From Akkermansiaceae bacterium (GTDB lineage Bacteria > Verrucomicrobiota > Verrucomicrobiia > Verrucomicrobiales > Akkermansiaceae), in NCBI GenBank assembly GCA_025457805.1, contig JALOTR010000115.1, forward strand, positions 1 to 10,993: a stretch of 10,993 bases of DNA. Direction: 5' to 3'. Position 1 is the first letter of the stretch. Every line of letters begins with the position of its first letter. The notes below the pieces were generated by a model, which worked only from the letters and a program-made list of their open reading frames with translations, had not been told where the DNA came from and searched no databases. The position numbers and the translations under genes were made by a program. Below are positions 1-10,993 of the stretch, piece after piece.

Positions 1-1212
1 CTCTGGGCCACCGCGCTCGATAGCGGCTCGCGCTCCAGTGGCCTCGGACCGGTCGCGGAAGATGATGAGGGCAATCTCTACGCCGGCGGAAACTGGGGAG
101 CCAACGTCCTCGACAAACTCCCCCAGCAGCTCATCGCGAAATTCTCCGCCAGCGGCGAATCGCTCGGCGGCATCCTCTACGGCTCCATCGATGCCGAAGG
201 CGCGGGCGAACCCATCGCGCCCACCCGTCCCATCCCGACCGGCGGCGAAACGATCTTCGATGTCATGCGCGACATCACCTGGCACGACGACCACCTCTGG
301 GCCTGTGGGCAGATCGGCGTGGGGAATTTCAATCTCGGCCTCTCCTCCGGTCAGACCGGCTACACCATGCGCATCTCGCCGGATCTGGAAATCGACCGCT
401 TCGCCCTCCACACCGGCACAGGCGCGGAAACGCTCAGTGCCATCCGCCCGGCTGCCGATGGCATGCTCACCTCCGGCAACACCCGCTCCATCCTGCCATG
501 GCCCGGCGGACATGACCCCGAGGGCGGCTTCCAACCGCAGAATGTCAACGCCCGCCTCGTCATGAAACTCCCCATGGAAGGCCTGCTGCGTTTCCACGAT
601 GCTTCGAATGCCGCGCAGCCCGATATCGATGAGCCCATCCCCGCCACCGGTTCCCACTACATCTATCCGCGCGTCTTCTCGCTCGGCGATGTCGGGGCAT
701 TCTCCGGTGGCTCGCTTTCCTTCGACTTCACCGCCCACGATCTCACCCTGGCACCGCCCGTCTTCACCCCCGGTAGCCTCGCTGCCGCCACGCCGCAGCA
801 TCACTACCAGATCGAGTTCGTGCCCCGGGAAATCATCGATTCCTGGAGCGATCATCAGAAATGGTATCAGATCGACACCACCGAAGACAGCGATGGCGAC
901 GGCCTCGACCTTGCGACCGAGTTCTACCACGGCACCGATCCTTTCGAGCCTAACAGCATCGCCCTGCAAATGACCACGCACCCTCTAACAGGCGCGACGA
1001 CCCTGTCTTTTCCCCGCTCCGAACTCGCCGCGGCCGAGGGCTGGACGGCACCCATCCAGCGCTCCGGCAGCCTTGAAATCTGGGAACCCGTCCCTTCCTC
1101 CAACCTCGATTCCTTTTCTAATGGATCCGGCTCGCTGCTTTATCTCAATCCCTTCATCCTCCCCGGACAGCAAAAGCAATTCTACCGACTCATCCCCGCC
1201 GAGGCCCCATGA
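1..1212 (+). CDS. Secreted or surface protein with C-terminal TSP3-like linker (5'-partial)
   Basis: The frame is open from the first base, so the gene begins outside the window; 403 residues are visible. The methionine at 265 is internal, because reading upstream of it gives sensible protein (for example EDDEGNLYAGGNW). The visible part looks beta-rich with Gly/Asp turns, as in delivery-type or beta-propeller proteins. Around visible residues 292-315 lies a linker containing EDSDGDGLDLATEFYHGTDP, the calcium-binding thrombospondin-type-3-like signature. A roughly 85-residue C-terminal domain ending QKQFYRLIPAEAP follows. This linker-plus-FYRL ending recurs in exported proteins of Verrucomicrobiota (family knowledge). 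The stop overlaps the start of the next gene by ATGA, so the two are probably translated together. The function is unknown; an extracellular role is inferred from the architecture only. Confidence 0.8.
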   Translation, partial: LWATALDSGSRSSGLGPVAEDDEGNLYAGGNWGANVLDKLPQQLIAKFSASGESLGGILYGSIDAEGAGEPIAPTRPIPTGGETIFDVMRDITWHDDHLWACGQIGVGNFNLGLSSGQTGYTMRISPDLEIDRFALHTGTGAETLSAIRPAADGMLTSGNTRSILPWPGGHDPEGGFQPQNVNARLVMKLPMEGLLRFHDASNAAQPDIDEPIPATGSHYIYPRVFSLGDVGAFSGGSLSFDFTAHDLTLAPPVFTPGSLAAATPQHHYQIEFVPREIIDSWSDHQKWYQIDTTEDSDGDGLDLATEFYHGTDPFEPNSIALQMTTHPLTGATTLSFPRSELAAAEGWTAPIQRSGSLEIWEPVPSSNLDSFSNGSGSLLYLNPFILPGQQKQFYRLIPAEAP

Positions 1213-3740
1213 AATCCATCCTTCTTCTCCTTCCCGCTCTTTGCCTCCCTCTGCACGCCGATCTCCAGATCCTCTGGGAACAGCCGATCAAGGGCACCAC
1301 TGCCATGAGCACCGCCCTTGGGGACATCGATGGCGATGGTGATATCGATGCCTGCATGGTTCATCTCAATGACCCCGGCCACGTGCTCGTCAATGATGGC
1401 GCGGGAAACTTCGAAATCAGCCCCACCGCCTCCCTGCTCTCGCCCGCAGGAGCGGTTGAAATGGCCGACCTGGATGGCGATGGCGACCTCGATCTCTTCC
1501 TCGCCCGCCATTTCGCGCAGTGCGAAGTCTGGTTCAACAATGGTGCCGGGAGTTTCACGAACAGCGAGCAGTATCTCGGTGGATTCGCATCCCGCCGCGC
1601 CCTCTCCCTCGCGGATCTTGATGCCGATGGCGATATCGATGCCGTCGTCCCCGCAAATGCGCCCGAACACCCCAATGAAATCTGGCTGAACAATGGCAGT
1701 GGCATCTTCTCGAACAGCGGCCAAAACCTCGGCAACCAGTTCACCCAGGGCTGCAAGGTCGCCGACGTGAATGGCGATGGCCATCCCGACATCGCCTTTG
1801 CCAACAATTCCAGCAACACGGTCTGGCTGAACAATGGATCAGGGGTTTTCACCCTCAGTCCGAGCACCATCGGTACATTGAACACGTTTGATATCTCCTT
1901 CGCCGATCTCGATGGCGACAGCGACCTCGATGCCTTCGTCTCCAAGGGTTCCATCGGCGGAGTGCCTAATGAAGTCTGGTTCAACAACGGCAGCGGAGTC
2001 TTTTCTAACAGCGGTCAGTCCCTTGGGATGAACTACTCTTTCCGCACCGCCCTCACGGATGTCGATGGCGATGGTGACATCGATGCTGTTGTCGGGAATT
2101 CCGCTGGAGAAACCAATCAGGTCTGGAGAAACAATGGCAGCGGTGTGTTCAGCAACAACGCCCCACCTCTCGGTACCTCGAATGCGAGCGATATCGATCT
2201 CGCCGACCTGGATGGCGATGGCGATCTCGACTATTTTCTCACCAACAACGGATTTCCTTCCGAAGTCTGGAAACGAGTCCCCGTCAACCAAGGCGGTCCG
2301 ATCAAGGATTCCGGCCAGAGGATCGGCGGCGTCAAGGCGAGTTGCAGCGCGTCGCTGGATTTCGATGAGGATGGCGACATGGACATTGCGATTGGCACCA
2401 GTGATGGCACCGTCGAATTGTTGGAAAACGATGGCGATGGAAGCTTTCGCGGGATCGGACTGCTGGTGCATGAGGGCGGTCCTCAGAACAACGCGGTGGG
2501 TGCCGGGGATTTCAATGGCGACGGTCATGCCGACCTCCTCGTCATCAACAATCCCACCGCCCCCGACCGCCTGTGGCTCGGCGATGGCAACGGCCAGTTC
2601 ACCGTCACTCCCCAGGAAATCGGAACATCCAGCGGCAGTTCGGTCGCCGTTCATGACACCGATGGCGATGGCGATCTCGATGCCATCGTTGGAAATCGCA
2701 CCCACTTCTCCACACCCGGTCAGAACCACATCTATCGCAACAACGGCAACGGCCAGTTCACCATCCTCGACCAATTCGGTGCCGGAACCACCTACGGCAT
2801 GGCCGTCGGTGACCTCAATGGCGACAACCTGCCCGACGTCGTCGCCGGCAATTTCTATGAACCCACCACCATCTGGCTGCGCAGTGGATCGAACAACTTC
2901 ACCGCCACCGGTCAGAACCTCGGCACCGGAGGCACGCTCGATGTCGAGTTGGCCGACGTCGATGGCGACGGCGATCGCGACCTCCTGCAAGTCAACGGCA
3001 ATGCCGCCAGCCAACTGTGGCTGAACAACGGCAGCGGCAATTTCACCGCATCGCCGCAGGTCTTCGTCGGAAATTCTGGCACCGGTGCTGTCTTTTTTGA
3101 TCGGGATGCCGATGGCGACCTCGACCTCTGGCTTGCCCAGGGATTCAGCGGCGAAGGAGCCGACAGCGTGTGGACCAACAATGGCAGCGGCGTTTTCAGC
3201 CAGTCACTCCTCTCCATCCGGCCGCAATACACCCAGAGCATCGAAGCCGCCGATTTCGATGGAGATGGCGGCATCGACATCTTTGCCACCAGCCTCAAGG
3301 GGGATCACATTTTGTGGAGTGAAACGGTTAGTGTCACCGTGGCGAGTTACTGCGCGGGCTTCGGCCTGAGTGGCAACCATCTGCTGCCGGAGGCGGACCC
3401 GGATCAGGACGGCGTGAAAAATTGGCAGGAAATGGCCTTCAACATGAATCCGGGCGTCCCGGACAAACGCGAATTCCGCAATCCCGCCAGCGACACCCGC
3501 GGACTCCCCACCGTGACCATCAGCCGTGCCGGAAATGGCTGGCGCGTCGAGGCTCGCACGATCCGGCGCATCAACCGCCACCGATCTCGACTTCGCCCCC
3601 GTCACCACGCAGATCCTCATCTCCAGCCAAGCACTAAACTCATTCTACGAACGCGCCAGTTACACCTTTTTCCTCCCTCCCGGCCCACCACGTGCCTTCG
3701 GTCGCTTCGAGGTGAAATACTCGCCGTGATGGTGGGTTGA
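1209..3740 (+). CDS. Secreted FG-GAP/VCBS repeat protein, frameshifted near its C-terminus
   Basis: The 843-residue frame starts at ATG 1209 inside the stop of the previous gene; GAGG at 1201-1204 is a fitting ribosome site. Residues 1-17 (MKSILLLLPALCLPLHA) form a signal peptide. Residues about 35-705 hold 14 repeats of about 45-50 residues, each with a DxDGDGDxD-type calcium loop (such as ADLDGDGDLD) followed by VWLNNGSGxF. These are FG-GAP/VCBS repeats, which build beta-propellers. Residues about 728-748 (EADPDQDGVKNWQEMAFNMN) are a TSP3-like linker to a C-terminal domain. After about residue 783 the frame becomes Arg/His/Pro-rich and unlike a folded domain, while frame 1 continues sensibly and stops at 3729. 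I take the last ~60 residues as read in the wrong frame. The likely role is an extracellular or cell-surface adhesion or binding protein; no enzyme motif is seen. Confidence 0.85.
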   Translation: MKSILLLLPALCLPLHADLQILWEQPIKGTTAMSTALGDIDGDGDIDACMVHLNDPGHVLVNDGAGNFEISPTASLLSPAGAVEMADLDGDGDLDLFLARHFAQCEVWFNNGAGSFTNSEQYLGGFASRRALSLADLDADGDIDAVVPANAPEHPNEIWLNNGSGIFSNSGQNLGNQFTQGCKVADVNGDGHPDIAFANNSSNTVWLNNGSGVFTLSPSTIGTLNTFDISFADLDGDSDLDAFVSKGSIGGVPNEVWFNNGSGVFSNSGQSLGMNYSFRTALTDVDGDGDIDAVVGNSAGETNQVWRNNGSGVFSNNAPPLGTSNASDIDLADLDGDGDLDYFLTNNGFPSEVWKRVPVNQGGPIKDSGQRIGGVKASCSASLDFDEDGDMDIAIGTSDGTVELLENDGDGSFRGIGLLVHEGGPQNNAVGAGDFNGDGHADLLVINNPTAPDRLWLGDGNGQFTVTPQEIGTSSGSSVAVHDTDGDGDLDAIVGNRTHFSTPGQNHIYRNNGNGQFTILDQFGAGTTYGMAVGDLNGDNLPDVVAGNFYEPTTIWLRSGSNNFTATGQNLGTGGTLDVELADVDGDGDRDLLQVNGNAASQLWLNNGSGNFTASPQVFVGNSGTGAVFFDRDADGDLDLWLAQGFSGEGADSVWTNNGSGVFSQSLLSIRPQYTQSIEAADFDGDGGIDIFATSLKGDHILWSETVSVTVASYCAGFGLSGNHLLPEADPDQDGVKNWQEMAFNMNPGVPDKREFRNPASDTRGLPTVTISRAGNGWRVEARTIRRINRHRSRLRPRHHADPHLQPSTKLILRTRQLHLFPPSRPTTCLRSLRGEILAVMVG
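3541..3729 (+). pseudogene. Probable true C-terminal end of the VCBS repeat protein, in a shifted frame
   Basis: Frame 1 here reads a well-mixed sequence including TDLDFAPVTTQILISSQALN and ending GRFEVKYSP with a TGA at 3727-3729. It has the character of the end of a verrucomicrobial C-terminal domain. The annotated frame (frame 3) instead gives RRINRHRSRLRPRHH. The switch lies between about 3555 and 3585, around GCACGATCCGGCGCATCAAC. A net gain of one base (or loss of two) would explain it. The cause may be a sequencing or assembly error, a real inactivating mutation, or, less likely, programmed slippage; no slippery heptamer is evident. Confidence 0.6.
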
Positions 3741-3745
3741 GACCT

Positions 3746-3773
3746 TACGGGATCCGTGAGATCCTCTTCTTTG
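3746..3773 (+). terminator. Weak intrinsic terminator after the VCBS gene
   Basis: GGATC (3750-3754) pairs with GATCC (3760-3764) around a 5-base loop and is followed by the T-rich run TCTTCTTT. The stem is short, so termination is uncertain. It lies between two convergent genes and has a T tail only on the plus strand. Confidence 0.3.
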
Positions 3774-3779
3774 CCCCCT

Positions 3780-4805
3780 TCAGAGCAACAACCAGGTCGC
3801 CAGCGAGAGAAAGACTCCCATGCTGGCGATGTCGGTGGCGGTGGTGAGGAAAATGCTCGATGCGGTGGCCGGGTCCGCGCCCAGTCGCTTCAGGGTCAGG
3901 GGGATCAGGGCGCCGGAAAGGCCGCTGATCACACAACTTGCGATCATCGCGATCATGACGATAAAGCCCATGAGCCACGGGCTTTCCTGGTTCTGCATCA
4001 TGGCATAGACCACCATGCCAAGCCCTGCGGTGATGCCCACGAAAAGGCCGTTGAAAAAGCCCAACGTGCCCTCCTTGAGGATGAGTCGGCGCTCCTGCCC
4101 GGCTTTGACATCTCCCAGCGTCATCCCTCGCAAGGCCACGGCCAGTGCCTGGCAGCCGGTGTTGCCGGACTGACCGGCCATGACCGGAAGGAAGACCGCG
4201 AGAATGACGACTTTGCTGAGGGTGTCCTCGAAACATCCCACCACCGCCGCGGCGAGGAAAGCGGTCAGAAGATTGATCTGCAGCCAGGGATGCCGGAGTT
4301 TCAGGCTGCGTTGGATGGGTGTGGCGAGACGTTCCTCCTTTTCCACACCAACCATGCTTCCGGCCTGCGCACTGATTTCGATGGCCTGTTCGGCAAACAG
4401 CGTGTCCCCGCGGATCAGGCCCTTGAGATGGCCCTCCGCATCGCACACTGGATACACCGGGAAATGCTTGGAAAGCGCGGCCTTGAGGGCATCGGCCAGG
4501 GGCATGTCTTCCCGCAGGGCAAAGGGCTTCCGCAGCATCAGCTCACCCAGAGTCGCCTCGTTTTTGGCCAGCAGCATGTCACGCATCACCACCAGCCCCT
4601 CCAATTTCCCCTCCGCATCGGTCACATAACAGTAAGTGATGAAGGCCGAGCGGGTCATCTCCCGCAGTTGCTCCACGGTTGCCCCCACGGTCATTTCCGC
4701 ATGAAACACCCCGACGGGCGGTGACATCAGCTCACGCAGGGTCGCGACTTTGGCTTTGAGTTGCGGCTTGGTCTCTGGGGCGGCAGGGGTGGCTTCCTCG
4801 GTCAT
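3780..4805 (-). CDS. mgtE: MgtE-type magnesium transporter lacking the MgtE N-domain
   Basis: This 341-residue protein imports Mg2+ (possibly Co2+) across the inner membrane. Residues about 24-145 form a CBS-domain pair (RELMSPPVGVFHAEMTV, FITYCYVTDAEGKLEGLVV, HFPVYPVCDAEGHLKGLI), the Mg2+-sensing part in MgtE. Residues about 173-341 form the five-helix pore domain. It has the signatures FLPVMAGQSGNTGCQALAVA (about 205-224) and GADPATASSIFLTTATDIAS (about 309-328). Asp311 and Asp325 fall in the conserved segment that lines the ion path in Thermus MgtE. Full-length MgtE has about 450 residues; the missing part is the N-terminal helical MgtE_N domain, and short forms of this kind are known. The gene follows the mutarotase gene by 49 bases and is probably co-transcribed. 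The start at 4805 is the first ATG giving a complete CBS pair; the Pro/Lys-rich leader is cytosolic. Confidence 0.9.
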   Translation of the reverse strand: MTEEATPAAPETKPQLKAKVATLRELMSPPVGVFHAEMTVGATVEQLREMTRSAFITYCYVTDAEGKLEGLVVMRDMLLAKNEATLGELMLRKPFALREDMPLADALKAALSKHFPVYPVCDAEGHLKGLIRGDTLFAEQAIEISAQAGSMVGVEKEERLATPIQRSLKLRHPWLQINLLTAFLAAAVVGCFEDTLSKVVILAVFLPVMAGQSGNTGCQALAVALRGMTLGDVKAGQERRLILKEGTLGFFNGLFVGITAGLGMVVYAMMQNQESPWLMGFIVMIAMIASCVISGLSGALIPLTLKRLGADPATASSIFLTTATDIASMGVFLSLATWLLL

Positions 4806-4850
4806 CGCTGCGGACCCTGAAGGATCCGGCGGCAGAGGACAAGCCCGCGG

Positions 4851-5720
4851 TCATGGCGATTCCACCACAATCCGCGTCCGCAGCACTTCGGTGCCTCCAG
4901 GCCCCACCGTCACTTCCGCCCCAGGCGCGTTGGCAGCCTCGATGCAGAGGAAATGGGGAAAGTCGTCCGCAGGCAGATCACCCAGTCGCGCAGCCTTTTC
5001 CGCCCCCGGGTTCCACACGACGGTGGAGGCGCTGCCCCGCTTGTGAACATGAATCCGGCGGTTTCGATCATGCACTGTTACGGTGGCCGACGATGCATAA
5101 ATCCGATCCATTTCGCCATCGATCCGGACCTCCCCCTGCTGGGTGCCGTGATGAGGGGATCCCGCCGCCCGCTCATCGTAAACCGCACCCTCCAATCCGC
5201 TCAGGAAAATCTCCGCTACATCGGTGACCCGCAGATAGGTGTGCAGCGCCGAACTGTCCGTGAATGCAGCGTCCGACGGATTGTGGCGGATCAGCGAAAT
5301 CTGCAATTCACGGCCCACCCGGATTTCCACAGCAGCTTCGAAAGCATGAGGCCAAAGTGCCAGCGTCTCTTCGTCGGCGTGAAGTTCGAAGCGCAGATGG
5401 ACGGAGGCTCCATCGTCCTCGCAGGCGATCAGGCTCCACAATCGCGTCCTCGCCAGCCCATGGGCGGGAAGCCGGGGGTCGGAAGGGTGGGGGCCGAACC
5501 ATGGCCAACAGATCGGCACGCCACCGCGGATCGCCTTGCCATTCTGAAAAACCGCAAGCGGGCTCAGATAAAGCACCGGCTCTTGTCCCGCCGGCGTCCA
5601 CTCCATGACCTGAGCCCCATGGAAGGCGATCCGTGCCGTGCAAGACGGGTGATGGACCTCCAAAATGGGGTAGTCGTCCAAAGGCGAGTGGATGCGAACA
5701 CAGTCCGGCAAAGGAATCAT
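4851..5720 (-). CDS. D-hexose-6-phosphate mutarotase (YeaD-like aldose 1-epimerase)
   Basis: The 289-residue product interconverts alpha and beta anomers of hexose 6-phosphates (EC 5.1.3.15 family) in the cytosol. Family signatures are clear: RGGVPICWPWFG (65-76), LPAHGLARTRLW (84-95), ALHTYLRVTDV (158-168), DRIY (205-208), VVWNPG (234-239) and FLCIEAAN (257-264). His87, His160 and Glu261 are the expected catalytic and sugar-binding positions by comparison with E. coli YeaD. I chose the ATG at 5720 because it gives the usual family length. The same frame runs open to 6110, but that extension has no family resemblance and overlaps the upstream gene. No strong Shine-Dalgarno precedes the start. 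It is the first gene of a probable pair with mgtE; no metabolic neighbour explains its substrate further. Confidence 0.88.
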   Translation of the reverse strand: MIPLPDCVRIHSPLDDYPILEVHHPSCTARIAFHGAQVMEWTPAGQEPVLYLSPLAVFQNGKAIRGGVPICWPWFGPHPSDPRLPAHGLARTRLWSLIACEDDGASVHLRFELHADEETLALWPHAFEAAVEIRVGRELQISLIRHNPSDAAFTDSSALHTYLRVTDVAEIFLSGLEGAVYDERAAGSPHHGTQQGEVRIDGEMDRIYASSATVTVHDRNRRIHVHKRGSASTVVWNPGAEKAARLGDLPADDFPHFLCIEAANAPGAEVTVGPGGTEVLRTRIVVESP

Positions 5721-5886
5721 GCACGGATTCTTTCCCCAAAACGCCCCGCAGTCGAGCCGACAAACTGTCAATGCCGTCCGCAAGAGGTGCGAATGTGTAG
5801 GGTCATGGGACGGTGCCTTCCGTTCCTCACCATCAGGGTGCACTACGAGAATCACCTCAAACTTGCCTGTTTGCGTCCCGTCTTTC
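5721..5886. other. Intergenic spacer upstream of the mutarotase gene
   Basis: These 166 bases separate the backbone-like mutarotase/mgtE pair from the accessory genes. The minus strand carries a perfect TTGACA (5771-5766) about 45 bases before the start codon, but no recognisable -10 box at the right spacing. No gene, attC-like site or strong hairpin is seen. It may mark the left boundary of the accessory region. Confidence 0.4.
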
Positions 5887-6465
5887 CTACCGTTTGTAAA
5901 GTTCGAGATTGCAGCGGATGAATTTATCGACCAGATCAGGGAGGCTCGGATCGGCCATGAAATAAAGTCCGTCGAGATCGTGGTAAGGAGATCGCTCATT
6001 GTCATCGCCCGATGGGCGATTGATATCCAAAACGGCATACTCCGTATGAAGGGTGGGTCGGTATCGATAAAGTGCTCTTTGAAAAATATTGAGATGATAG
6101 TCGGATCCATACAGTTTCAAGCCATCCTCTACCAAGTCCAAATAGGCCCCCTCCGAATTTTCGAAATACTGATCGTGTCCGCCGTTGTTGACCTCACAAT
6201 CGTAATGCATTACAGCCTGAAGCGTGCCCCAATGTTTGGGGAGCTTGCGAAGCTTTTGAGCGAAGGAGAATTCGTTGTCGTCGGCCGAAAGATAAAGGAC
6301 CGCCACCAGATCTCCGGCTGAATATGCAAGACCATCTGACTTCAGCATGCCACGCGAGAGCGTCAACCGTTTCGGGAGAATGCTGTTATGAATCCCGTTA
6401 AGCAGGTCCATCGGATCATACTTGCCGGTGAAAAAGTATCGCAGGCGGGCAATGATTCGCTTCAT
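5887..6465 (-). CDS. DMP19 / DUF4375 family protein
   Basis: This 192-residue protein has no signal peptide or membrane segment. The segment YDCEVNNGGHDQYFENSEGA (88-107) matches the core of the DMP19/DUF4375 family (E-x-N-G-G-x-x-Q-[YF]-F-x-N-S). The acidic C-terminal half (ADPSLPDLVDKFIRCNLELY) also fits. The family name comes from Neisseria DMP19, a DNA-mimic protein; many other members sit beside polymorphic toxins and are suspected immunity proteins. The start overlaps the stop of an upstream toxin-like remnant by ATGA, an arrangement typical of toxin-immunity pairs. An immunity role is therefore inferred, not shown. No clear Shine-Dalgarno is present, so translation may have depended on the upstream frame. 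Confidence 0.75.
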   Translation of the reverse strand: MKRIIARLRYFFTGKYDPMDLLNGIHNSILPKRLTLSRGMLKSDGLAYSAGDLVAVLYLSADDNEFSFAQKLRKLPKHWGTLQAVMHYDCEVNNGGHDQYFENSEGAYLDLVEDGLKLYGSDYHLNIFQRALYRYRPTLHTEYAVLDINRPSGDDNERSPYHDLDGLYFMADPSLPDLVDKFIRCNLELYKR

Positions 6466-6593
6466 TTCTTGGGAGGAAGAAGAATACGTCCACCTCTAGC
6501 ATCGGGGCCATGACGCTCGGTATTGGGGTTGAAAGAGCTCGGTGACATCAGGGATGATATTCGATTAGCAATTTTCCCTCTCCGGCCCAGCCT
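6462..6593 (-). pseudogene. C-terminal remnant of a gene, possibly a polymorphic toxin
   Basis: The frame is open for 43 codons after an in-frame TGA at 6596-6594 and ends on a TGA that overlaps the ATG of the DMP19 gene. It reads MSPSSFNPNTERHGPDARGG (from 6548) then RILLPPKK. A short basic tail rich in Gly, Pro and Asn, ending PPKK, resembles the extreme C-terminus of secreted toxin modules of the Rhs type. That resemblance is my reading of style and was not searched. Upstream sequence in all three minus frames is broken by stops, so the body of the gene is missing or decayed. It could instead be a 28-residue leader peptide for the DMP19 gene. Confidence 0.4.
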
Positions 6594-6614
6594 TCATGTG
6601 GTGTTCAGGGATCA

Positions 6615-6714
6615 GGCTATCTTGATGAGGGGCTTAGCTGATCCCGCCGTCGAGATCAAGCGCCGACTGAAAACCGGAGCATTCGGGTTTGCCGCGAATC
6701 AAGCCTTGGTCTCC
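6615..6714 (-). repeat. Decayed attC-like element (relative of the 9067-9155 site)
   Basis: On the minus strand this segment aligns with the attC-like site at 9067-9155: GGAGACCAAGGC against GCAGAACAAGGC, then GCGGCAAACCCG against ACGGCAACCGG, then an identical TCGGCGCTTGATC. From CAAGGC to that last block the copies are 55 and 54 bases long. It ends ATCAAGATAGCC where the other ends ATCGATAGGC. Part of the stem survives (GGCTT with AAGCC, GAT with ATC, CCCG with CGGG). The R'' box has lost its AAC end, so the site is probably inactive. It follows the DUF3634-like gene, as an attC would. Confidence 0.4.
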
Positions 6715-6761
6715 CGTCGGGTTCCGATGCGTCGAGCGGTGTTGAGTGGGATCGTCTGGGG

Positions 6762-6998
6762 TCAATAGAGAGAAATCACATTCCTGATTCTCTGGTGGAT
6801 TGTTTCCGGAATCTCCCTCGAGAAACTCACCTTGCCAAGCGGATCGATCCAGATCTCGCCTTCTTTGAGATTCACCTCGGATGCGATGGATGAAATTTCG
6901 GCCATTATGCGATTGCCCCGTTTTCCCTTCAAGCAATAGGCAGTTCCACCGCGAATCCGGATCGCGGTTGATGCGAAGAGTCGTGACACGAATTTCAT
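6762..6998 (-). CDS. DUF3634-like small protein
   Basis: This 78-residue protein matches, by motif order, the DUF3634 family of small bacterial proteins of unknown function. IRIRGGTAYCLKGKRGNRIM (about 13-32) corresponds to the family's 'vrvrdG-vrGkvp' start. A middle stretch GEIWIDPLGKVSFSREIP is followed by the IHQRIRNVI ending (family: qQRLRNV). Family members usually begin with a membrane helix; here only KFVSRLFASTAI precedes the domain. The N-terminus may therefore be truncated or the protein may be a shorter version. The ATG at 6998 has no clear Shine-Dalgarno. It lies between a truncated secreted gene and a decayed attC-like site, so it may be cassette cargo. Confidence 0.6.
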   Translation of the reverse strand: MKFVSRLFASTAIRIRGGTAYCLKGKRGNRIMAEISSIASEVNLKEGEIWIDPLGKVSFSREIPETIHQRIRNVISLY

Positions 6999-7049
6999 CG
7001 ATCGAGGGGGCGGATGGGTGTTGTTAGGAGGGGAGTGAGGGGGGGCTTG

Positions 7050-7202
7050 TCAGAAAGTAAAAATTCCATACAGGCCAACCTCCTGAGGGAAGACCGCCAT
7101 GGTCCATTTCTTGTCTGGCGATTGGTTGCTGTCGCTGACCACCCAATCGCTGGCAAAGGCGTGGCCGCAGAGAAGTGTCAACAATGTAAGCATGTTTCGC
7201 AT
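7050..7202 (-). pseudogene. Truncated secreted protein (50 aa)
   Basis: Residues 1-17 (MRNMLTLLTLLCGHAFA) are a convincing signal peptide. They are followed by SDWVVSDSNQSPDKKWTMAV and then FPQEVGLYGIFTF before a TGA. The 'SDxNxSPDxKW' start resembles the beginning of longer secreted verrucomicrobial proteins, so this is more likely the 5' end of a gene cut off by deletion or recombination than a complete small protein. No continuation is recognisable downstream: the next 50 bases are C-rich and lead into the DUF3634-like start. A genuine secreted 33-residue peptide cannot be ruled out. Confidence 0.45.
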
Positions 7203-7385
7203 TCGAAGTGGTTCTGCTTTTCTAGCCTAGGTCACAACACACCATCTGAATCAAGGCAAGCGTGCACTGAGTTTAGGTTCAGGGTTCTGGACACGATGAA
7301 AATCCGAGTTGCTGCGGGTCCAGATGGTCGGGTGCTGTGTCTTGGTGGGATTTGTGGTGGCGCGTTCCGCGTAAGAGGGGATGGT
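7203..7385. other. Intergenic, nothing recognised
   Basis: These 183 bases lie between the propeller-protein stop and the truncated signal-peptide gene. I see no plausible gene, attC-like site or terminator on either strand. Confidence 0.4.
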
Positions 7386-8624
7386 TCAATTGCTGGCGGG
7401 CCGGGCTTGAACTCGATAGAATTGCCTTTCCTCCAGTTCCTCGGGCGCTTGGATGAGGAACATCGCCCGTTCCCCGGCGAGTGGGGTTCGCCAGTTACCC
7501 ATTGCCTCCCACCCATTGACAGACAGGTCAGAGCTCCGCTCGACCCTGTATTCAGTGCCGTCTACTGTGGGCCATTCCAGCACGCCAGGACGGATGAGGC
7601 GATAATGCAGTGGTTTGCCCGGGGACAATAGTTGGGAGGTGGAATCAGTGACAGCCACCCGGTCCAGCAGAGCAACCGGCCGTTTCGCGTGGCGGAACTG
7701 CACATTCAACCCGCCAACCCCCATCCAATCAAACCCATCGGATGAACTAAAATATTCGATACGAATTGTCGAACCCATTGAGGGCAGGAACTGTGCGAGG
7801 AACATCCGATCCAATTGCTGGTGATGGAACAGTGTGATTTCGCCGCTCCAGCTCCCAATTTGGTGCCATCGGCACGCATCACCAGACACGAATAAAGTGC
7901 TGTCCTGCCAGTCCGTCGTGGCACATAACCACCGACCCCGAAAGTAGACCAGATGGACAGGATCATCGGGGAGACCACTTACGGCTGCCGTGCTCCAATT
8001 CGCCCCGTCCGCCGAGATATAGCGCGTATGCTGTGAAAGCACAACGAACTGATCAGCGCCGATCGCCTCGGATTGGGCATCTCCGAAGTCCTGTTCAATC
8101 CTGACCCACCTTAGTCCGTCTTCGCTTCTGAGCCTGCTGCTTGGATCTGTCGTGGCGAAGCCGTATAGGTCTCTAGCGGCATGCACATGCCACCCATTAG
8201 CGTACAGCCAATGCCTCGGAACAGTGGCATTCTCGTCAGGCAGGCTGGTGATTGCTTCGATCCAAGTGATCCCATCATTGGATGTGTATCTCAGTTCTCC
8301 GACTGTCACAAACCATGTTCCGTCGACATGGCAGATGCTCGCGTCATCGCTCGGGTCAAAGCCGGATATCCATTGGTTGAGCCATGACACCCCATCAGTC
8401 GATGACTCGATTCGAACAGCGGTGGTGACACCGGTAGTGCCGTCTGACTCCATAATAACCCTAACCAGACGCTCTCCGTCTGATTCTAAAGCGCGAATCG
8501 CTTCATCAGGTCCAAGAGAAACAGTGGTCCAGACCAAAGTTTCCACGCAGTGGCCGTACACGCTGAGTAAGGCAGATAACACTGTCCCAGTGGCAAGAAA
8601 TTTGAGTCTTCGAAACAGGTTCAT
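7386..8624 (-). CDS. Secreted Asp-box / sialidase-like propeller protein
   Basis: This 412-residue protein starts with a signal peptide (RRLKFLATGTVLSALLSVYG, roughly residues 5-24). Six repeats of the form S-x-D-G-x-x-W follow: SSTDGVSW (74), TSNDGITW (114), RSEDGLRW (166), ISADGANW (203), VSGDACRW (246, degenerate) and SSSDGFDW (293). They fit the blades of a sialidase/BNR-type beta-propeller. No set of catalytic arginines typical of sialidases is obvious, so enzyme activity is not claimed. Residues about 335-412 form a small C-terminal domain (LEWPTVDGTEYRVERSSDLS ... QFYRVQA) like those ending many exported verrucomicrobial proteins. The start at 8624 is the only ATG giving a complete signal peptide. 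It shares strand with the cassette-like genes but its size and type are more like a chromosomal gene. Confidence 0.78.
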   Translation of the reverse strand: MNLFRRLKFLATGTVLSALLSVYGHCVETLVWTTVSLGPDEAIRALESDGERLVRVIMESDGTTGVTTAVRIESSTDGVSWLNQWISGFDPSDDASICHVDGTWFVTVGELRYTSNDGITWIEAITSLPDENATVPRHWLYANGWHVHAARDLYGFATTDPSSRLRSEDGLRWVRIEQDFGDAQSEAIGADQFVVLSQHTRYISADGANWSTAAVSGLPDDPVHLVYFRGRWLCATTDWQDSTLFVSGDACRWHQIGSWSGEITLFHHQQLDRMFLAQFLPSMGSTIRIEYFSSSDGFDWMGVGGLNVQFRHAKRPVALLDRVAVTDSTSQLLSPGKPLHYRLIRPGVLEWPTVDGTEYRVERSSDLSVNGWEAMGNWRTPLAGERAMFLIQAPEELEERQFYRVQARPASN

Positions 8625-9066
8625 TGGAAAGTGGGCCTTTGCTATCCTACAGCTTATTTATCCTGCTTTTCGGTTTTGCCGAAGGTCCAGGATCAGGTGA
8701 CGGCGAGCGGGGTGAAGGTTGGAAGGACAGGAGGGCATCGAAAATCGGCGACTGGTAGGGGTTGGATGATGCGGCTTGATAGGCCTCGGGTTCGGGTCGG
8801 TTTCACGGCGGCGATGGTCAGGAAGATGGGCGGAATCGGTCGGGATGGCAAGACTGGACGCGGGGAAATTCGGCTTTCGTGGCTCTCCTCAGGCACTTCC
8901 ATCCACCTTCGAGCTGTTAAGGCCCACTGGCGAGTGATGCCCGCCATCGACACCCTCTGTTGGTCTGATTCCGAATCCAAGTTCATCCCGGATGCCAGGG
9001 TTCGCTTCTCACTTTTTTCGGGAATCTCCCCAGTGGTGCCGGTACTGCGAGGATCACAAATTCTTG
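8625..9066. other. Gene-poor stretch of about 440 bases
   Basis: Open frames exist on both strands, but their translations are low in complexity and rich in Arg, Pro and Ser (for example SRISPRPVLPSRPIPPIFLT on the minus strand), without start signals or recognisable domains. I therefore call no gene. It directly follows the attC-like site at 9067-9155, so it may be the decayed first part of a cassette. A high-GC purine-rich tract on the plus strand (8693-8850) stands out but I cannot assign it. Confidence 0.4.
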
Positions 9067-9155
9067 GCCTATCGATGATGTGGTGGCCCCGGCGGGATCA
9101 AGCGCCGATTCGAGGAAGGACGTTGTCTCCGGTTGCCGTTCACGCCTTGTTCTGC
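9067..9155 (-). repeat. attC-like recombination site following the Tdi1-like gene
   Basis: Read on the minus strand, the site starts 8 bases after the stop codon with R'' GCAGAAC and ends with R' GATAGGC. Paired arms in plus coordinates: GTG (9080-9082), GGC (9085-9087) and CCGG (9089-9092) with CCGG (9129-9132), GCC (9135-9137) and CAC (9141-9143). An unpaired AA faces a single G, exactly as in the site at 9634-9722. Both sites are 89 bases, and their first 34 bases agree at 26 positions. R' departs from GTTRRRY at its second base, so activity is uncertain. Confidence 0.6.
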
Positions 9156-9163
9156 GATTTCTT

Positions 9164-9628
9164 TTACGATTCACCCTCGATGCTAAATCCAGAGATTCTT
9201 GTCCCCGCAGGCATGTGGCGGACCTGCTCATGGAGCTGTCCGGCCATATTCACAGCGACCACGAAGTTCCTGGGCTCTACGTTCTCGTATTCGATTGGTC
9301 CACCCACAACGGGATTGAGCTTGAAGTCGTAGCACTGCCCCTCCGAAAGAGTCATTCCGTCGCGGTGCGCCTGCTCTACGAAGCCAGCAAAAAGGTAATG
9401 ATTCTCACCGTCCTTAGTTCCTAGAATCGATTCCAATTCGGCTCTAGTGTCGCAGACCTTGGTCAGCGCCCCTTCGATAGTGTCGAGAAACCAGATCCCA
9501 TCGTCGGACGAAAAGAATACGTCTCCGAACGCTGTGACGAGAATGGGCTGCTTGCCCTCAACGCCAAGCCAACCCCATGATTCGAGAGCGCGTGCTACGT
9601 CCTCAAGTGAAGGCTGAATATAGATCAT
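9164..9628 (-). CDS. Tdi1-like (T6SS immunity C-terminal, DUF1851) protein
   Basis: This 154-residue cytosolic protein carries the DUF1851/Tdi1 C-terminal domain over residues about 30-150. Diagnostic segments are GIWFLDTIEGALTKVCDT (44-61), GENHYLFAGFVEQAHRDG (74-91), LSEGQCYDFKLNPVVGGP (94-111), and FVVAVNMAGQLHEQVRHMPA (122-141). In Agrobacterium, Tdi1 neutralises the type VI DNase effector Tde1; most relatives are only presumed immunity proteins. No toxin gene lies next to it here. The start codon follows the R' box of an attC-like site after only 5 bases, and the stop precedes another such site by 8 bases. This is the layout of a promoterless integron cassette. I infer an orphan immunity or defence role. 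Confidence 0.8.
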   Translation of the reverse strand: MIYIQPSLEDVARALESWGWLGVEGKQPILVTAFGDVFFSSDDGIWFLDTIEGALTKVCDTRAELESILGTKDGENHYLFAGFVEQAHRDGMTLSEGQCYDFKLNPVVGGPIEYENVEPRNFVVAVNMAGQLHEQVRHMPAGTRISGFSIEGES

Positions 9629-9633
9629 TTTCA

Positions 9634-9722
9634 GCAGAACGATAGAGTAGAGGCACCGGCGGAGGGAAGCTCGAATTCAACTTGGTGTGTTGTCGCCGGT
9701 TTCCTCGCACGGCTTGTTGGGC
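9634..9722 (-). repeat. attC-like recombination site between the Tdi1-like and 108-aa genes
   Basis: On the minus strand it opens with R'' GCCCAAC, a perfect RYYYAAC, followed by AAGCCGTGC, 8 bases after the stop codon at 9731. In plus coordinates, GAGG (9650-9653) and ACCGGCG (9655-9661) pair with CGCCGGT (9694-9700) and CCTC (9703-9706), with an unpaired AA opposite a single base as attC extrahelical bases. The loop is 32 bases. R' is GTTCTGC in ATCGTTCTGC, lying 5 bases before the next ATG. R' keeps the GTT needed for strand exchange. Confidence 0.72.
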
Positions 9723-9730
9723 ATTCTCGG

Positions 9731-10057
9731 TTAGAGCGTAGACCGCCTCAACGCCTGCTCACGGATTTCACTGCTAAAGGCGTCCAGGTCATCGGCCGTC
9801 ATCATACCGTGATTGAACATCACCATAATGAAGAGCTCCATCTTGGAGCGCGAATGACCATCGAGACAGTCCCGAAGAATCTCGGCGATCGCTTGGGTCC
9901 GTTCCTCGACATCCCAGAAGCGCTCAGTCGGGGAGCGGGCACTGTCATTGAGGATCGACCTGAGCTCTTCATTGCGAGCGCAGAGGTAGCGCTCCCGCAG
10001 CTCCGGAACCATGGCCCGGAACGCTTTCCAATCTGATTCCTTGGGTCTGTCGTGCAT
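9731..10057 (-). CDS. Conserved-looking hypothetical protein (108 aa)
   Basis: The 108-residue product has no signal peptide or membrane helix and looks mostly helical and charged. Recognisable parts are DWKAFRAMVPELRERYLCAR (9-28), SPTERFWDVEERTQAIAEIL (42-61) and DCLDGHSRSKMELFIMVMFN (63-82). I recognise no domain and assign no function. Small helical proteins of this kind are common cargo of integron cassettes (general knowledge). The gene sits between two attC-like sites: the stop is 8 bases before the 9634-9722 site and the start lies 16 bases after the 10074-10171 site. No Shine-Dalgarno or promoter is evident. Confidence 0.7.
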   Translation of the reverse strand: MHDRPKESDWKAFRAMVPELRERYLCARNEELRSILNDSARSPTERFWDVEERTQAIAEILRDCLDGHSRSKMELFIMVMFNHGMMTADDLDAFSSEIREQALRRSTL

Positions 10058-10073
10058 CGGTCCGTACTATTCT

Positions 10074-10171
10074 TCCCAATGTTTGATGTGCGCCCACCGG
10101 CGCGGCTGAAGGGATGTTGAAATGAAACTGAAAAAGCTTGTGTCCAGTTGGGGTGGCACGATTTGTTCTGG
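10074..10171 (-). repeat. attC-like recombination site between the 108-aa and 211-aa genes
   Basis: Minus strand: R'' CCAGAAC begins 7 bases after the stop codon and is followed by AAATCGTGCCACC. In plus coordinates, GTGC (10088-10091) and CACC (10095-10098) pair with GGTG (10152-10155) and GCAC (10156-10159), with a 3-base bulge. The left box is poorly preserved: I take ATTGGGA as R', which misses GTTRRRY at two positions. A second small hairpin, GCGCC-GGTG-GGCGC, overlaps the left arm. It is the least regular of the four inter-gene sites. Confidence 0.5.
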
Positions 10172-10178
10172 CTCGAAT

Positions 10179-10814
10179 CTATTTTGTGTCATGCGCGTGG
10201 ATGAGCCGCCACTCGTCATCCTTCTTGCGGTATTGCAAGGTGCATGCCCTGTTCTTCTCCTGGATCTGCACAAGTTCGTCTCCTTGCTTCGTGTCGTCGA
10301 ATCCTTGTTCCTTCAATTGCTTGGCGAGGGCCTCGTGTGAAGGATTAAGCGACAGAACATGAAAGCTATCCTTGGCGAACCCGCACGTTAGTGCCTCTTT
10401 CTGCGCCAACTCAATCACTTGGGCAGAAGCGGTCACGTCAAACAGAGAGAGATAAGTGTCGAGCTCCTTCTCATTGATTCGTATGAGAGGCTTCGAATCC
10501 GCCTTCGTCTCGAAGGCGAGAGTCTGTTTCGCTTTGTCGTAGAGAAGTGTAATGCTCTGTTTTCCGTCATTCTCTGCCAGCGGCCCTGTGATGGTAACGA
10601 TTGATTCCTTCGCGTCGTATACCCATCCCCATATGGGTGATCGCCCAACGGAATTCACCAGGTCGCCTGACCCATTTTTACCGAGGACGATTGTGACTGT
10701 TCCGAAGCCCTGCGCTTTGTTTGAATAAACGCCGACCAAGTTCTCCTCCGTCGCGTGGATCAGCGCACAGAACAAGCTCAGGTAGCCAATCGCTGATAAC
10801 AAGAAGTGGATCAT
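10179..10814 (-). CDS. Secreted protein of unknown function (211 aa)
   Basis: Residues 1-21 (MIHFLLSAIGYLSLFCALIH plus A) are a signal peptide, so the protein is exported. Residues about 25-110 look beta-rich (GVYSNKAQGFGTVTIVLGKN, YDAKESIVTITGPL, KQTLAFETKADSKPLIRI), compatible with a lipocalin-like or similar small barrel. Residues about 120-211 are more helical and charged and end CTLQYRKKDDEWRLIHAHDT-K. I do not recognise a family. The ATG at 10814 lies 6 bases after the R' box (GTTCGGC) of an attC-like site, and the stop is 7 bases before another. That places it in a single-gene cassette. Expression would depend on a promoter outside the window. Confidence 0.72.
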   Translation of the reverse strand: MIHFLLSAIGYLSLFCALIHATEENLVGVYSNKAQGFGTVTIVLGKNGSGDLVNSVGRSPIWGWVYDAKESIVTITGPLAENDGKQSITLLYDKAKQTLAFETKADSKPLIRINEKELDTYLSLFDVTASAQVIELAQKEALTCGFAKDSFHVLSLNPSHEALAKQLKEQGFDDTKQGDELVQIQEKNRACTLQYRKKDDEWRLIHAHDTK

Positions 10815-10820
10815 ATTTGT

Positions 10821-10948
10821 GCCGAACGATGAGCGCGTGCACCACTACCAGCGAGGGCGCGCGTCGATCACGGTGTGAGGATTGTGGTCGCGGGAAATCA
10901 TCGAAACTGAACGGCTGGTAGTGGTTGTCACGGCGCGGCTTGTTGAAC
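10821..10948 (-). repeat. attC-like recombination site upstream of the 211-aa gene
   Basis: Minus strand: R'' GTTCAAC (a perfect RYYYAAC) then AAGCCGCGCCGTGAC. A perfect 12-base inverted repeat, ACCACTACCAGC (10841-10852) and GCTGGTAGTGGT (10914-10925), encloses a 61-base loop. Outside it GCGCGTGC (10833-10840) pairs with the GCGCCGTGAC of the other strand, with two single-base bulges. R' is GTTCGGC within ATCGTTCGGC. The 128-base length is within the attC range, near that of Vibrio cholerae repeats. This is the clearest site of the set. Confidence 0.75.
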
Positions 10949-10957
10949 AGAGCCGCT
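10936..10957. repeat. Short hairpin overlapping the R'' side of the rightmost attC-like site
   Basis: GCGGCT and AGCCGC form a perfect 6-base stem around a loop containing the R'' box. It could compete with folding of the attC-like site or simply belong to its outer arm. Without a T tail it is not a terminator. A minus-strand TAA at 10973-10971 may end the next cassette gene, of which only the last codons would be in view. Confidence 0.35.
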
Positions 10958-10993
10958 GCGCGGCGAGGTCTTACTTCGGCGTTGAAAGGGGTG

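Follow-up and report, generated by a model that had tools for sequence, protein, structure and literature searches.

Integron gene cassettes are small mobile genes that are exchanged by way of hairpin-forming attC sites. These sites follow a box consensus and recombine through their bottom strand (PMC3053210), and that consensus served here as a test for attC, namely a palindrome of varying length between an R'' box (RYYYAAC) and an R' box (GTTRRRY). Verrucomicrobiota are listed among the phyla with integrons (PMC8618304), and among the matches listed in our literature search, as far as their available text goes, there was no study devoted to integrons of this phylum or its subgroups; the available text of PMC8352920 names 11 taxon-specific attC models, none of them for Verrucomicrobiota. 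In IntegronFinder usage, two or more attC sites with no integrase in reach are termed CALIN, and CALINs are stated to be overstated in draft genomes (PMC9024848, available text). Immunity gene arrays of Vibrio have also been likened to integrons, by authors who see no evidence of an integrase (PMC5361080, available text).

The DNA studied here, called the window in the following, is an entire contig of 10993 bases (C287) from a metagenome bin (G000) of 736 contigs, 3.95 Mb in total and 59% completeness. A sequence-only reading had proposed that its right end carries integron-type gene cassettes, with three single genes on the minus strand (211 aa, 10814-10179; 108 aa, 10057-9731; 154 aa, 9628-9164) separated by four imperfect palindromes. 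All three open reading frames and all four palindromes were found where they had been placed, and the extent of the rightmost palindrome was corrected to 10821-10948 (128 bases). The features of the window are as follows.

10821-10948, minus strand: attC site s0, 128 bases, long type, GTT intact; R'' GTTCAAC, R' GTTCGGC
10080-10826, minus strand: cassette A, extending from TT in the R' box of s0 through base 1 of the R' box of s1, with the 211-aa gene (10179-10814)
10074-10171, minus strand: attC site s1, decayed; R' reads ATTGGGA where GTTNNNN is expected
9640-10079, minus strand: cassette B, with the 108-aa gene (9731-10057); predicted fold of Fluorescence Recovery Protein (FRP)
9634-9722, minus strand: attC site s2, 89 bases; R'' GCCCAAC, R' GTTCTGC
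9073-9639, minus strand: cassette C, with the 154-aa gene (9164-9628), Tdi1 C-terminal domain (PF08906)
9067-9155, minus strand: attC site s3, decayed, R' reads GATAGGC; the last recognisable site of the contig
5765-9066, no strand assigned: probably accessory stretch between the MgtE-epimerase pair and the array, without a recognisable attC site
3780-5720, minus strand: MgtE (3780-4805) and aldose epimerase (4851-5720), a conserved two-gene block (Pfam)

Elsewhere in the window, an 843-aa open reading frame on the plus strand (1209-3740) contains many DGDGDxD-like repeats and by eye resembles calcium-binding surface repeat proteins. The window gave no Rfam match at gathering thresholds, and none of the nine other bin contigs tried, out of 736, had an exact end overlap with it (25 to 141 bases).

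Putative attC sites were scored with a covariance model (R1) built from 20 congener sites, with the structure drawn by hand. Its source was 20 regions adjoining integrases in genomes of the same genus, no window sequence being used; from 30 candidate sites extracted by a script, six near-duplicates and four poor ones were dropped by eye, and the other 20 were aligned. For a second model (R2), all 86 matches from those 20 loci were used; 14 of the loci have attC matches and six have none. With filters off, R1 found four sites over noise in the window, all on the minus strand, the next best place reaching 7.7 bits: s2 (9634-9722; 54.8 bits, E = 9.4e-13), s0 (10821-10948; 50.4 bits, E = 1.3e-11; 47.1 bits with R2), s3 (9067-9155; 35.4 bits, E = 1e-7) and s1 (10074-10171; 20.7 bits, E = 6.7e-4 within the window). 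The identical four sites were returned by R2, with the next place at 10.4 bits. The attC search that the sequence-only reading had called for, made with a model independent of the window, returned four matches rather than none, and the sites align across the genus rather than failing to do so. Bin-wide, the E value of s1 is 0.245; as this site is not significant there by itself, it was assigned from its position and from its similarity to an R1 training site of congener G098 (L050:7128-7224), with which it is identical in 79 of 98 columns. The best pairwise match of s0 among the 86 congener sites was L035:11835-11960 (98 of 131 columns), which itself scores only 17 bits. Two further stretches that by eye had looked like degenerate attC sites were rejected: 6610-6712 gave only 5.8 bits with R1 (at 6669-6714) and was absent from the R2 matches, and about 5830-5890 gave nothing with R1 (filters off) or R2.

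The two 89-base sites, s2 and s3, share the 26 of 34 leading bases counted previously and 57 of 89 bases overall, and the bulge of AA versus a single base that had been described in them recurs at the same place in several congener sites. Three of five measures showed covariation between the arms of the training set. There were 66 cells with changes on either side against 26.7 in shuffles, a change in both arms being required, and the covariation score was 0.387 against 0.131, with 0 of 500 shuffles as high in either case; slid pairings of the same arms scored far lower, at 0.075-0.114. The two null measures, which are those that the tool calls least prone to relatedness, were not above shuffles, namely pairs changed on both sides (13 vs 11.4; 95 of 500 shuffles) and further pair types (27 vs 24.7; 101 of 500). 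Based on the model matches, the training-set covariation on these three of five measures and the bulge common to congeners, the attC bottom strand folds as a hairpin with extrahelical bases, and the identity and structure of the sites are direct observations.

Inspection of the core boxes found AAC in all four R'' boxes of the window and GTT in the R' boxes of s0 and s2, while at the cut-box position s1 reads ATT and s3 reads GAT. Position 4 of the R' box, a purine in the usual consensus GTTRRRY, is C at s0 and s2 as well as in 56 of 76 congener sites, a sample to which G098 contributed 46 sites (36 with C), with 20 of the 30 sites outside G098 also having C. The R' core box of the genus is mostly GTTC (loci L032-L050). 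In the spacing of boxes and genes, the R' boxes lie close before the next ATG (6, 16 and 5 bases), as had been proposed, and the distance of 7-8 bases from the stop codons holds for the start of the R'' boxes (7, 8 and 8 bases), the AAC itself ending later than had been claimed.

A cassette's first six bases being complementary to its own R'' box was used as the footprint of a circular form. For the congeners, 86 matches were reduced to the 81 with both AAC and GTT, and five antisense duplicates were removed; this yielded 59 cassettes, each with such a site at either end and 100 to 1500 bases between the two. Of these, 57 matched at 6 of 6 bases, and the other two at 5 and at 4 (mean 5.95), compared with means of 3.93 inside single sites and 4.10 on random pairing, and 0 of 5000 shuffles were as high. 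Though 43 of the 59 cassettes came from G098, the remaining 16, from five genomes, all matched at 6 of 6. In the window, cassettes A, B and C matched at 4, 5 and 6 of 6 bases, so that the footprint is perfect only in C, and three cassettes on other contigs of the same bin scored 6, 5 and 5 (13 own sites used). The window genes have the organisation of one gene plus one attC site with the footprint expected of a circular form, and their series of 4, 5 and 6 fits true cassettes whose boxes have drifted.

Next, we surveyed integron integrases and attC sites across the family and genus. Of 195 family genomes, the own bin counted in the sample, 64 matched the TIGR02249 integrase profile above the curated cut-off and 76 did so at E <= 1e-30, against 0 of 14 controls at that E value, which makes integrons common within this family of Verrucomicrobiota. 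Of the 73 genus genomes, again with the own one counted, 63 had attC sites at E <= 1e-4. Among the 43 congeners in the integrase sample, 27 had an integrase match and 16 did not; attC sites were found in 25 of the former (median count 8) and 11 of the latter (median 2.5), these per-genome counts being lower bounds from up to 57 scored candidates per genome. In two congeners with an integrase match (G155 and G190) no attC was found at E <= 1e-4. The single-contig congener G098 carries integrases and at least 57 attC sites; within 20 kb beside one integrase, 38 sites were retained. In the three single-contig congeners G036, G082 and G131 neither integrase nor attC was found. Among named integrase loci searched with R2, three of ten had matches (19 in total, 16 of them in Salinisphaera), and the nearest named integrase relative (74% identity; L067, Verrucomicrobiaceae bacterium E54) had no attC in 374 array-side bases.

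These data bear on whether the palindromes could be dispersed repeats or transcription terminators with no relation to integrons, a reading to which their imperfect symmetry and position directly after stop codons would lend themselves. The attC-model matches, the circle footprint and the linkage to integrases all speak against it, as does the lack of any attC match in the single-contig congeners G036, G082 and G131, which have no integrase match either; we consider it very improbable.

In G098, each of two integrases lies at the upstream end of an array, with its 5' end facing that array. From this placement, the integrase of a like-oriented array would lie to the right of position 10993, in agreement with the orientation that the sequence-only reading had predicted. 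No integron integrase over the cut-off was found in the own bin, which is 59% complete and split into 736 contigs. Two candidates, on contigs C58 and C332, were rejected because no single stretch of them exceeded 86 and 80 bits, respectively, where the cut-off is 265; both are presumably Xer-type recombinases. Further attC sites of the bin were found on C668, C32 (three), C565 (three), C249, C258 and C76, and weaker ones were located on C48 and again on C76; with 150 of 2370 candidates scored, this tally is a lower bound. The corresponding loci (L147-L151 and L153, on C668, C32, C565, C249, C258 and C76) hold additional sites and cassettes of the same genome, and one attC site of C565 is cut by the contig end.

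As a refinement of the cassette reading, the array may be a CALIN in the sense of an attC cluster without an integrase in cis, arising by loss of the integrase or by off-target insertion. The lack of an integrase over the cut-off in the own bin, the missing GTT at two of the four sites, the attC sites on several other bin contigs and the presence of attC in 11 of the 16 congeners that lack an integrase match are all as expected for such a cluster. The absence of the integrase nevertheless weighs little in a bin 59% complete and on a contig that ends near the upstream side of the array, and integrases occur in 64 of 195 family genomes, so that we put this refinement at slightly below an even chance.

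The three cassette genes occur sporadically. Relatives of the 154-aa, 108-aa and 211-aa proteins were found in 8, 6 and 2 of 243 other family genomes, and protein database matches numbered 85 for the 154-aa and 236 for the 108-aa protein (the own protein counted in both) and four for the 211-aa protein (its own protein not among them). Of the 20 relative loci, all of which were examined, four had attC sites within 45 bases on both sides, namely L163 (154-aa protein), L168 and L173 (108-aa protein) and L175 (211-aa protein). Another four (L156, L161, L162 and L170) had an attC site within that distance on one side. The other 12 had no attC within 45 bases, with sites only further off at two (L167 and L176) and none in the examined stretch at 10. 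The circle footprints of L163, L168, L173 and L175 were 6, 5, 6 and 5 of 6. At L175, in another genus, a relative with 29% identity to the 211-aa protein is flanked by attC on both sides. The own bin also contains a second gene of the 108-aa family (L172, G000:C294:6248-6556; 53% identity), with no attC in the examined stretch. Searches of the three cassette proteins with PADLOC and NCBIfam gave nothing useful. In their patchy occurrence and in having cassette relatives elsewhere, the window genes appear, by sequence comparison, to be mobile. The model matches, circle footprint, rarity of the genes and cassette context of their relatives bear out the proposed integron-cassette reading, and the right end of the window is almost certainly composed of integron gene cassettes, as remains or a far part of a chromosomal array.

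To place the array in its setting, we compared the left flank with congeners. The MgtE-epimerase pair (about 3770-5764) is present in five congeners, two of them single-contig, with 70.6-75.7% DNA identity and 61.7-86.5% protein identity (L189-L193). By blastn and tblastn, the sequence right of 5764 was not found beside the pair in these five congeners, two of whose contigs reach only 0.7 and 1.1 kb past the epimerase, and no attC was found at the five loci. The gene order is thus not fixed among relatives, in line with the cassette reading, as five congeners have the pair without the array. Window positions 1-3769 were likewise not found at the five loci; because the left part is also absent, only the two-gene block is conserved, and the array is not set apart by this comparison. 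Between the single-contig congeners G082 and G131, the DNA past the epimerase is conserved at 72%. G+C drops at position 5765 from 0.619 to about 0.54 (0.539 for 5765-9066). Given this lower G+C and the absence at congener MgtE-epimerase loci, 5765-10993 is probably accessory DNA, of which 9067-10948 is the recognisable array.

The stretch 5765-9066 contains a DMP19-domain gene (5887-6465), a 412-aa open reading frame (7386-8624) and a 78-aa open reading frame (6762-6998) with a sub-threshold DUF3634 match. The array may formerly have reached further left, such that 5765-9067 would hold older cassettes, the DMP19 gene among them, whose attC sites have decayed past recognition. The low G+C of 5765-9066, its absence from the same place in five congeners, the minus-strand orientation of its larger open reading frames and the decayed state of the nearest site (s3) would all agree with such an extension; since no site over noise was found there with R1 or R2 with filters off, we regard it as unlikely.

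In the cassette reading, each gene would have been captured as a circle consisting of the gene and its attC site; an integron integrase would have acted on attC in its folded bottom-strand form, cutting at the GTT of R', and then joined the circle to the integron. Older cassettes would have been displaced away from the integrase, here leftwards, and the integrase, past or present, would lie to the right. With the GTT of the cut box lost at s1 and s3, the part of the array with these two sites looks old, as if fossilising, and the window offers a case of sites inside an array losing the cut triplet. For the same reason s1 and s3 are probably no longer cuttable, in which case the only exit for the 211- and 108-aa genes would be as a pair, by excision between s0 and s2, and the gene of the 154-aa protein would be trapped.

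The cargo was examined further for the 108-aa protein. Its AlphaFold2 model has a pLDDT of 93.4, and the best matches of the model with Foldseek and VIA-align were FRP and FRP-like proteins, so that an FRP/FRP-like fold is predicted over the full length. No FRP sequence was among the 19 PDB matches up to E 10 of a profile of the 108-aa family, which were weak and mostly phosphatases and ferritins. FRP-like proteins are described as sporadic, of unclear function and mainly from proteobacteria and acidobacteria, and the cyanobacterial photoprotection regulator as acquired by horizontal transfer from them (PMC10172135, available text). The main text of that source, as available, mentions neither "integron" nor "verrucomicrob". 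In G052, a genome from a different genus, two loci each have a gene of the 108-aa family with an attC site on either side. The proposal that FRP-fold genes are carried from one bacterium to another as integron cassettes, with the 108-aa family as one such gene, is tentative and in our judgement not quite as probable as its opposite; if true, the sporadic spread of FRP-like proteins would have a vehicle in cassettes. The window in any case points to genes of this predicted fold as cassette cargo.

Compared with known systems, the 154-aa protein resembles the type VI secretion system (T6SS) immunity protein Tdi1 in its PF08906 domain (30.2 bits against a gathering cut-off of 27.4), and its gene stands alone in its cassette; no T6SS sheath gene (PF05943) was found in the incomplete bin. 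The predicted fold of the 108-aa protein agrees with FRP/FRP-like structures (PDB 4jdx, 5tz0 and 8ag8) over 102-104 residues, with a sequence identity of 10-15%, no match in profile searches and no partner known here. As a CALIN, the array would count four attC sites, with the reach on the integrase side limited by the contig end at 10993. From sedentary chromosomal integrons the window differs in having no integrase on its contig, in the decay of two of its four sites and in C instead of a purine at R' position 4, a trait common among congeners. It resembles them in attC design, in one gene per cassette with a shared orientation, in the circle footprint, in mostly unknown genes and in the integrase placed upstream of the arrays in congener G098. 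The analysis supplies an attC model for a phylum outside the 11 taxon-specific models named in the available text of PMC8352920. Integrons in Verrucomicrobiota are already known, and what is less ordinary is the predicted FRP fold of the 108-aa cassette protein.
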